Assembly: GCA_031276435.1 (NCBI GenBank)
Contig: JAISNB010000011.1
Span: 1 to 34,573 of the forward strand
DNA: 34,573 nt
Direction of reading: 5' to 3'
Origin: Burkholderiaceae bacterium
Lineage (GTDB): Bacteria; Pseudomonadota; Gammaproteobacteria; Burkholderiales; Burkholderiaceae_C
A program made the position numbers and the translations under genes. The notes under the pieces are model-generated. The model made no database searches and was not told the DNA's origin. It worked only from the letters and a program-made list of their open reading frames with translations. Below are positions 21,297-24,348 of the stretch, piece after piece (the stretch's first letter is position 1; the number at the start of each line of letters is the position of its first letter).

Positions 21297-23213
21297 TCAG
21301 GCTTTGGACACAATGTCCTGCCCCAGGCGCTCGGCAAACGCCTCAAGCGGCATGACGCCAAGATCCTGTCCGCCCCGCGCGCGCACGGCAACGGCACCAA
21401 CTTGCTTTTCCTTGTCGCCAGCGACAAGGATATAAGGCAGCTTTTGCAACGAATGCTCGCGTATTTTATACGTGATCTTCTCGTTTCGCAGGTCGGTTTC
21501 GGCCCTGAAGCCCCGCTGGCGCAGCATTTTGGCCACGCTTTGCGCATAGTCGGCCTGCGCGTCGGTGATTGTGGCGACCACCACCTGAACCGGCGCCAGC
21601 CAGACGGGCATGGCCCCCGCGTGCTGCTCGATCAGGATGCCGATGAAGCGCTCAAGACTGCCCACGATGGCCCGGTGCAGCATGACGGGGCGGTGGCGCG
21701 CACCATCTTCGCCCACATATTCGGCGTCCAGCCGCTCGGGCAAATTGGGGTCGACCTGGATCGTGCCGCATTGCCACTGGCGGCCCAGCGCGTCTTTGAG
21801 CGTGTATTCGATTTTGGGGCCGTAGAACGCGCCCTCGCCGGGCAAGTACTCGAACGCGCAACCCGACGCGCGCAACCCCGCGGCCAGCGCGGCTTCGGCT
21901 TTGTCCCAACTGGCGTCGGTGCCGATGCGTTTTTCGGGCCGCGTCGACAGCTTGTAGAGTATGTCGGTAAAGCCAAAGTCCTTGTAGACCTTTTGCAGCA
22001 AGGTCGTGAAGGCCGTGACTTCGGACTGGATCATCTCTTCGGTACAGAAGATGTGGCCGTCGTCCTGCGTGAAACCGCGCACCCGCATGATGCCGTGCAG
22101 CCCGCCCGATGGCTCGTTGCGGTGGCAGGCGCCAAATTCGCCGTAGCGCAGCGGCAGATCGCGATAGCTCCTGACACCCTGCTTGAAGATCAGGATGTGG
22201 CCCGGACAGTTCATGGGCTTGAGCGCGTAGTCGCGCTTTTCCGACTCGGTGGTGAACATGTTCTCGCGGTACTTGTCCCAGTGGCCGGTTTTTTCCCACA
22301 GGCTTTTGTCCAGAATCTGCGGGCCTCTGACCTCCAGATAACCGTTGTCGCGGTACACGCCGCGCATGTACTGCTCCACCTGCTGCCAGATGCACCAGCC
22401 CTTGGGGTGCCAGAACACGGTCCCGGGCGAATGCTCGTCAATGTGGAACAAATCCAGCTCGCGCCCCAGCTTGCGGTGATCGCGCTTTTCGGCCTCTTCC
22501 AGCATCGTCAGGTATTGCCTGAGATCGTCCTTGCTGGCCCAGGCCGTACCGTAGATGCGCTGGAGCATCTCGTTGCGGTGATCGCCCCGCCAGTAAGCGC
22601 CCGCCACCTTCATCAGCTTGAAGAACCTGAGCTTGCCCGTGCTGGGCACGTGCGGGCCGCGGCACAGGTCTTCAAACGCGCCCTCGCGGTACAGGGACAC
22701 ATCCTCATTGGTCGGAATGCTGGCGATGATCTCGGCCTTGTAGTGCTCGCCCAGTCCCTTGAAGTACGCCACCGCCTCGTCGCGCGGCAACACGCGGCGC
22801 ACCACCGGCTCGTCCCTGGCGGCCAACTCGGTCATCTTCTTCTCGATGGCGGCCAGATTTTCCGGCGTAAACGGGCGCTTGTAGCTGAAGTCATAGTAAA
22901 AGCCGTTTTCGATCACCGGCCCAATGGTGACCTGCGCATCCGGAAACAGCTCTTTGACCGCGTAGGCCAGCAAGTGCGCGGTGGAATGGCGGATCATCTC
23001 CAGCCCCTCGGCATCCCTGGCCGTCACAATGGCAAGGCTGGCGTCGTGATCGACGATAAAACCCGTGTCCACCAGCTTGCCGTCCACCTTGCCGCCCAGC
23101 GCCGCCTTGGCCAGGCCTGCGCCAATGCTGGCGGCCACTTCGGCCACCGAAACCGGGCCGGGAAACTGCCGCCTGGAGCCATCAGGCAGCGTGAGAGTGA
23201 TTGCGTTGCTCAT
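21297..23213 (-). CDS. thrS: Threonyl-tRNA synthetase
   Basis: A 638-aa class II synthetase charging tRNA-Thr. It has an N-terminal TGS domain ([15 protein letters not shown] onward) and an editing domain with HSTAH. These are followed by [10 protein letters not shown], a zinc-binding catalytic core with [11 protein letters not shown] and [20 protein letters not shown] (motif 2), motif 3 in [16 protein letters not shown], and the anticodon domain from [15 protein letters not shown] 23213 is chosen over an in-frame ATG at 23225, which would have no spacing from its only possible ribosome site. The leader contains a terminator-like hairpin. Confidence 0.96.
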
Positions 23214-23230
23214 TTTTGAAAACATCCTGC

Positions 23231-23265
23231 ACGAAAAACAAAAAGCGCGGGATCCGCCGCGCTTT
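23231..23265 (-). terminator. Terminator-like hairpin just upstream of thrS
   Basis: On the minus strand AAAGCGCGG/CCGCGCTTT (arms 23257-23265 and 23242-23250, 6-nt loop) forms a 9-bp stem followed by TTTTTGTTTTT. It ends only about 18 nt before the thrS ATG, so it either ends upstream transcription from cysE or acts as an attenuator. Confidence 0.65.
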
Positions 23266-23571
23266 CATGTGGGTTGCCTGACTGTGATTGTTCCTGACCG
23301 CTGCAATGCTTCTGCATGGCGCCCGCTGCAAAAGGCGCGCGGGCCGGCACCTTTTGCCAATCAGCAAAAAAACGGTGGAGTCCAAGTTCGCGGTGTCATA
23401 ACCGGGGTGCCTTTCTCGCTCTTATCCAGAAACGGGTTCGCTTGGCGCGGCAGCCACTCACGGCAGCCGCATCCTTCACCCAAAAGCTCTAAGTCAAGCT
23501 GTTGATTTTACAGCGCCTCTGGCGCGATGCGGCGCGCGGCAGCGCACGGCGGGGCACGCAGCGCCCCTGGC
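23266..23571 (-). promoter_or_regulatory. thrS leader region (no gene of normal size)
   Basis: The 346-nt cysE-thrS spacer has no convincing full-length gene or tRNA. It holds a -10-like TAAAAT (23505-23510) without a clear -35, which would give a leader near 285 nt. A perfect 8-bp long-range stem GCAAAAGG/CCTTTTGC (23328-23335, 23350-23357) and the thrS-proximal terminator hairpin are also present. A 12-codon Thr-containing ORF lies at 23361-23399. Confidence 0.4.
23361..23399 (-). CDS. Putative leader peptide MTPRTWTPPFFC of thrS
   Basis: ATG 23399 opens a 12-residue ORF with three threonine codons, ending at TGA 23361-23363. AAAGG lies about 10 nt upstream. It precedes an 8-bp stem and, about 100 nt further on, the terminator hairpin before thrS. 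The position resembles amino-acid attenuation leaders, but three Thr codons in 12 could be chance. Confidence 0.25.
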   Translation of the reverse strand: MTPRTWTPPFFC

Positions 23572-24348
23572 TTATTTGCCGATCAGGTTGGTCAGCCGCT
23601 CGGCCTCAAAGGTTTCTTGCAGTGCGGCCTCGCCCGGTACGCAGCCCGGGGCCTTGGCTTGCGCGGAAAGCTGCTCGATAGCCAGCCACAGCAGTGCCAC
23701 CTGGTGCTCGTGGCTGGCGGCGTTGTCGATCAGCCCGCGCAGTGCAAGGCTCACCGGATCGTCGCTTTGTGTGACGCCGTAGGCCGAAAAGTCCATTTGT
23801 CCCGCCACTTCTTCGCGCTGCGTTTCGTCCTCGGCCTGAATGACGCGCGCCGGGTTGCCTATGGCGGTTGCGCCTGCTGGCACTGGCTTGGTGACCACCG
23901 CACCCGATCCGATTTTTGCGCCATCGCCCACCACAAAGCCGCCCAGCACCTGCGCGTTGGCGCCCACGATGACGCCTTTGCCAAGCGTGGGATGGCGCTT
24001 GGTGCCTTTGAGCAGCGATGTGCCACCCAGAGTCACGCCCTGATAGATGGTGCAGTCGTCGCCAATTTCAGCCGTTTCGCCAATGACCACGCCCATGCCG
24101 TGGTCGATGAATACGCGGCGGCCAATGACCGCGCCGGGGTGAATTTCGATGCCCGTGAGCCAGCGGCCCCAGTGCGATATCCAGCGCGCCAGCCAGGTCC
24201 AGCCCGCTTTCCACAGCGGGTGCGCAATGCGGTGCAGCGCCAGTGCGTGAAAGCCGGGATAGGAAAAGATGACATCCCAACGGCTGCGCGCGGCCGGGTC
24301 GCGCTCAAGAATGGACTGGATGTAGGAGTTGGTGCGACGAATCCACAT
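23572..24348 (-). CDS. cysE: Serine O-acetyltransferase CysE
   Basis: A 258-aa enzyme transferring acetyl from acetyl-CoA to L-serine, the first step of cysteine synthesis. The N-terminal helical part includes [19 protein letters not shown]. The left-handed beta-helix of hexapeptide repeats includes [25 protein letters not shown] with catalytic His-Asp residues, [11 protein letters not shown] and [23 protein letters not shown]. The C-terminal ~80 residues are not hexapeptide and are variable. ATG 24348 lies 10 nt after the trmJ stop without a Shine-Dalgarno; re-initiation from trmJ is likely. Confidence 0.93.

Follow-up and report, generated by a model that had tools for sequence, protein, structure and literature searches.

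A putative threonine-responsive transcription attenuator upstream of thrS in a family of Burkholderiales

The threonyl-tRNA synthetase gene thrS of a Burkholderiales family is very probably controlled by a ribosome-mediated transcription attenuator of the trp/his type that senses charged tRNA-Thr, as judged from a comparison of thrS leaders that started from a single stretch of DNA of 34,573 nt (hereafter the window; contig JAISNB010000011.1 of the Burkholderiaceae bacterium assembly GCA_031276435.1). Because a Thr-rich ORF and a terminator are conserved ahead of thrS across most of the family, Thr shortage is probably sensed by a stalled ribosome. A preliminary description of the window had proposed such an attenuator from a Thr-containing mini-ORF before thrS and a terminator hairpin with a U-rich tail. 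Both are indeed present on the minus strand, at 23399-23361 (3 Thr in 12 codons) and 23266-23233, and its reading is supported at the family level, where the Thr codons and an antiterminator pairing are both conserved among related thrS leaders; the window copy itself is without the canonical 1:2 pairing, and our model predicts no correct switch for it.

Results

The features of the window leader are compiled in Table 1. The leader ORF reads ATG ACA CCG CGA ACT TGG ACT CCA CCG TTT TTT TGC TGA. The terminator consists of a 10-pair stem, GAAAGCGCGG-CGGATC-CCGCGCTTTT, followed by a TTGTTTTTC-type U-tract, and its end is separated by 15 nt from the first ATG of thrS (23225) and by 27 nt from an alternative ATG (23213), the latter start being more similar to those of the relatives.

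Table 1. Elements of the thrS leader in the window and the evidence on which they are based
Feature	Position	Strand	Basis
cysE-like gene	end at 23572	-	upstream border of the thrS leader spacer
-10-like element TAAAAT (TGTAAAAT), putative leader promoter	23505..23510	-	TANAAT conservation in relatives
Shine-Dalgarno region GAGAAAGG of leader ORF	23410..23417	-	near-invariant in 23-sequence alignment
GGCACC, 5' arm of 6-bp long-range stem enclosing leader ORF start	23406..23411	-	folding; role inferred
Leader ORF MTPRTWTPPFFC, Thr codons 2, 5 and 7	23361..23399	-	MTPRT start conserved; in-frame-only Thr enrichment
18-nt near-invariant motif GGTTATGACACCGCGAAC, spans start codon	23386..23403	-	identical in 44/50 leader-bearing genera
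Region 1 (CGCGAAC)	23386..23392	-	pairs with region 2 in relatives; window copy without good partner
8-bp hairpin GCAAAAGG/CCTTTTGC, region 2 in loop, copy-specific	23357-23350/23335-23328 (span 23328..23357)	-	sequence
GGTGCC, 3' arm of GGCACC long-range stem, overlaps region 2	23346..23351	-	folding
Region 2 (GCCGGCCCGCGCG), antiterminator 5' arm	23336..23348	-	predicted duplex with region 3 of -15.3 kcal/mol
Region 3, terminator 5' arm GAAAGCGCGG	23257..23266	-	sequence, conservation, pairing
Region 4, terminator 3' arm CCGCGCTTTT and U-tract	23233..23250	-	terminator kept in 50/50 leader-bearing genera
thrS, threonyl-tRNA synthetase	21297..23225	-	ORF; relatives 70-88% identical; start 23225 or 23213

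Taken alone, a 12-codon ORF with three Thr codons is weak evidence. The ORF nevertheless stands beyond chance, because its start is near-identical in 50 of 58 genera and occurs nearly always at one site per genome. For this comparison the DNA upstream of thrS was collected from one genome per genus in the GTDB family of the window; a leader ORF starting with MTPRT was found in 50 of the 58 genera, 44 of which share GGTTATGACACCGCGAAC without any difference over 18 nt, and an intrinsic terminator lies between leader ORF and thrS in all 50. The peptide consists of MTPRT and a variable tail, in which Thr codons stand at position 6 in 70% of the leaders and at position 7 in 54%; some genera have just two Thr codons (e.g. 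MTPRTRPEGFFKL). After codon 5, Thr codons make up 24.9% of in-frame codons (116/466) versus 1.4% (6/416) and 3.1% (13/416) out of frame. When family genomes were scanned with a sequence model built on the 46 nt of the start region, 123 of 151 had a match, nearly always at a single site, and the motif is likewise unique in the genome of the window.

Outside the family, strong matches to this model were restricted to two other families in an order-wide scan of 150 genomes, with weaker matches elsewhere, one of which sits just before thrS. A pattern search in 185 genomes of the class, allowing up to three mismatches, gave about as many control as real matches outside the family; the exact motif is thus not spread more widely. 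Other families of the order carry different Thr-containing leader ORFs before thrS, followed by a terminator (MTPRTTTWLWENR, MTPRTTTTICERR, MTPLTCTGHN, MTLRTCTKH, MQRTSTKTITYLG, MLKTDTTTLMISG). Among the otherwise different thrS leader ORFs of these families, CGA AC[T/G] (Arg-Thr), often continued by TGC, recurs in five leaders. A separate observation is that in many of these other families the thrS leader is immediately preceded by a tRNA-Val gene (17 leaders), which suggests that tRNA-Val and thrS were co-transcribed in an ancestor.

Conservation around the leader start extends beyond the peptide. The Shine-Dalgarno sequence GAGAAAGG and the ATG are near-invariant among relatives, and codons 2 to 4 (ACA CCG CGA) as well as the upstream GGTT vary little even at synonymous and non-coding positions. 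Such constraint might reflect arrest by the nascent MTPRT peptide, or a factor bound by the invariant RNA, with the Thr codons being secondary. We consider this distinctly unlikely, since Thr enrichment continues past codon 5, where the sequence is otherwise free, since other families have other peptides that still include Thr codons, and since a duty in pairing accounts for the constraint on CGCGAAC. It is also unlikely that the near-fixed 18 nt, besides pairing with region 2, act as a second sensor that complements Thr-codon attenuation, for instance by binding a factor or by causing a ribosome pause that depends on the peptide or its codons.

The attenuator would require alternative pairings. 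Almost every terminator 5' arm reads NCGCGG, the leader ORF nearly always contains CCGCGAAC, and the spacer holds an element (GUUCGCGC, GUCCGCGC, GGCCGCGG or CGCCGCGU) able to pair with either the leader ORF (1:2) or the terminator 5' arm (2:3). Compared with shuffled spacers, duplex energies have z values of -7 for 1:2 and -12 for 2:3 (in standard deviations of the mean), and in a swap test each region 2 paired better with the region 3 of its own leader than with that of another genus (p = 0.0006), with a weaker result for 1:2 (p = 0.04); the samples contain related genera, so all these significance values are inflated and the p values optimistic. A change of the arm from GCGCGG to ACGCGG is matched by a change of region 2 to CCGCGU in two leaders. 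Comparison of the leaders thus documents the leader ORF, the in-frame Thr enrichment, the terminator and, as predicted structures, mutually exclusive 1:2 and 2:3 pairings. Direct pairing of CCGCG in the ORF with the terminator arm was considered as the sole switch and dropped, as starvation would then turn thrS off.

We modelled folding for transcripts that end with the terminator 5' arm and scored the probability of the antiterminator pairing with or without a ribosome. This probability rose from 0.56 without a ribosome to 0.89 with a ribosome at Thr-5, a gain of 0.33 compared with 0.07 +/- 0.04 for a shuffled-spacer control. With the ribosome placed at the stop codon it stayed at 0.76, which indicates that ribosome release and 1:2 pairing would be needed for termination. 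A second modelling scheme with 85 leaders gave 0.53 for the free RNA, 0.73 with the ribosome at Thr-5 and 0.49 with the ribosome at the stop codon. The modelled polarity is that required for induction on Thr shortage.

The window copy is a diverged member of this group. It retains the leader ORF, three Thr codons and the 2:3 and 3:4 pairings, with Thr-6 replaced by Trp. Its 2:3 duplex (-15.3 kcal/mol) is just about 1 sd beyond its own shuffles, no canonical 1:2 pairing was found, and in the folding model its antiterminator probability is 0.76 when free and 0.48 when stalled, i.e. of the wrong sign. The GGCACC/GGTGCC stem around the ORF start, which overlaps region 2, may substitute for 1:2 in this copy. 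That the window copy works in the standard way is therefore claimed with less confidence than the attenuator at the family level. The 8-bp stem GCAAAAGG/CCTTTTGC of the preliminary description does exist, but it is confined to the window copy and differs from the conserved pairing, and it was rejected as antiterminator for this lack of conservation.

Of 49 leaders (one per genus), 41 have a TANAAT element at a distance of 15 to 130 nt before the ATG of the leader ORF, against 1.6 expected after shuffling; it mostly lies near -50 from the leader start, and at -111 in the window. A consensus -35/-10 pair was not found in the window. This position argues for transcription of the leader ORF from its own promoter, and it speaks against a promoter downstream of 23361, which the preliminary description had named as a finding that would refute its reading.

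The other refuting condition named there was a hairpin conserved without the peptide. Such a hairpin occurs in 19 of 120 leaders, as scattered losses; the peptide is present in 91 of 120. By the motif criterion 29 of the 120 leaders are without the ORF, 19 of these retaining the hairpin, and at least 18 state changes are placed on a thrS tree of the 120 sequences that has many weak forks. At least one leader scored as ORF-less has a variant ORF (MAVRTRF...), so that the loss count is an upper estimate. In several Limnohabitans-like lineages the hairpin follows right after the -10-like element; orphan hairpins without leader ORF were noted in nine leaders and others, some about 10 to 35 nt from that element. 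Hairpin-only leaders thus represent local loss from a conserved state, and these natural losses provide material for studying how attenuation control is dismantled.

The same peptide-less leaders, in which a CGCGG..CCGCG hairpin alone is left, might be taken to mean that the hairpin simply terminates transcription of the gene upstream (in the window, the cysE-like gene) and that the mini-ORF is there by chance, and in some leaders the upstream gene does end nearby. However, leader and hairpin are retained behind different upstream genes, from which they are separated by the promoter-like element, and the in-frame Thr enrichment and conserved ORF refute this explanation at the family level; overall we regard it as highly improbable.

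Two further features of the minus strand of the window may be mentioned. A 15-pair terminator-like hairpin with a T-rich tail lies between rplT and pheS (19692-19658); no Phe-rich ORF was seen before it in this spacer. In the infC region (21121) there is an apparent start upstream of the listed GTG, the N-terminus of IF3 being missing from that ORF, which would fit a non-ATG start like that seen elsewhere among bacteria.

Discussion

The mechanism we propose would operate as follows. A ribosome would begin translating the leader ORF as RNA polymerase moves ahead. With enough Thr-tRNA the ribosome would finish and leave, region 1 (CGCGAAC) would pair with region 2, and region 3 would be free to pair with region 4, so that transcription would stop before thrS. 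If Thr-tRNA is scarce, the ribosome would stall at Thr codon 5 (often also at codons 6 and 7) and cover region 1; region 2 could then pair with region 3, no terminator would form and thrS would be transcribed. Translation of the leader ORF, ribosome stalling on Thr limitation and the resulting change in read-through are all three inferred.

In E. coli, thrS is regulated by a tRNA-like operator in the leader RNA that is bound by ThrRS and acts on translation. As the gene is the same, and the leader start lies within 18 near-invariant nt that could serve as a binding site, translational autorepression by ThrRS could be envisaged here as well. Yet what is conserved is a Thr ORF and a terminator, and in the window the short distance from terminator to thrS start (15 to 27 nt) leaves no room beside the thrS ribosome-binding site for the tRNA-like domains of an operator of the E. 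coli type. This explanation is therefore very unlikely, and the earlier suggestion that these bacteria use a solution different from that of E. coli is supported. In Firmicutes, thrS is often under T-box control, which makes a T-box or another known riboswitch worth considering; neither at the gathering score nor at a relaxed E-value, however, did Rfam report any RNA family, T-box included, in the leader of the window or of nine relatives, and such an element is almost certainly not involved.

Our findings suggest that thrS is controlled through transcription attenuation in much of the Burkholderiales, and not through the textbook operator of E. coli. With attenuation in this order, a single gene would have at least three RNA solutions: operator, T-box and leader-peptide attenuator. 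The element is compact and conserved but absent from Rfam, and it is missed by annotation pipelines. Full-text searches gave no description of this element in these bacteria, the closest results being the thrL leader of Streptomyces lividans and general surveys of attenuators; Lopatovskaya et al. 2010, which reportedly deals with attenuation of aminoacyl-tRNA operons, could already mention it. The type of mechanism is classical; it is for its use with thrS in these bacteria that the searches gave no earlier description.

Among the known systems, the E. coli operator resembles the leader described here in controlling thrS through leader RNA and differs in being a tRNA-like structure bound by ThrRS that acts at the translational level. 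The thrS T-box of Firmicutes likewise relies on transcription antitermination that senses tRNA-Thr charging, but it binds the tRNA directly. Closer similarity exists to the trp, his, thr, ilv, leu and pheST attenuators of proteobacteria, which also combine a short ORF containing regulatory codons with a terminator and exclusive 1:2, 2:3 and 3:4 pairings, and which share conserved segments with more than one pairing partner; tightly conserved segments obliged to pair with more than one partner have been described for proteobacterial attenuators (PMC1262725). In contrast to these amino-acid-operon and pheST attenuators, the leader analyzed here controls thrS, its ORF comprises about 12 to 16 codons, of which sometimes just two or three encode Thr, and the nucleotide sequence of its first five codons hardly varies. 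Among published cases, the nearest is Streptomyces lividans, in which a thrL leader peptide (MKRVRPFLETTPGFVPAR) is encoded upstream of thrS (PMC8079986). It is alike in having a Thr-containing leader peptide ahead of the same gene, and differs in its leaderless start, the lack of a clear U-tract terminator, an unrelated peptide sequence and its occurrence in Actinobacteria.
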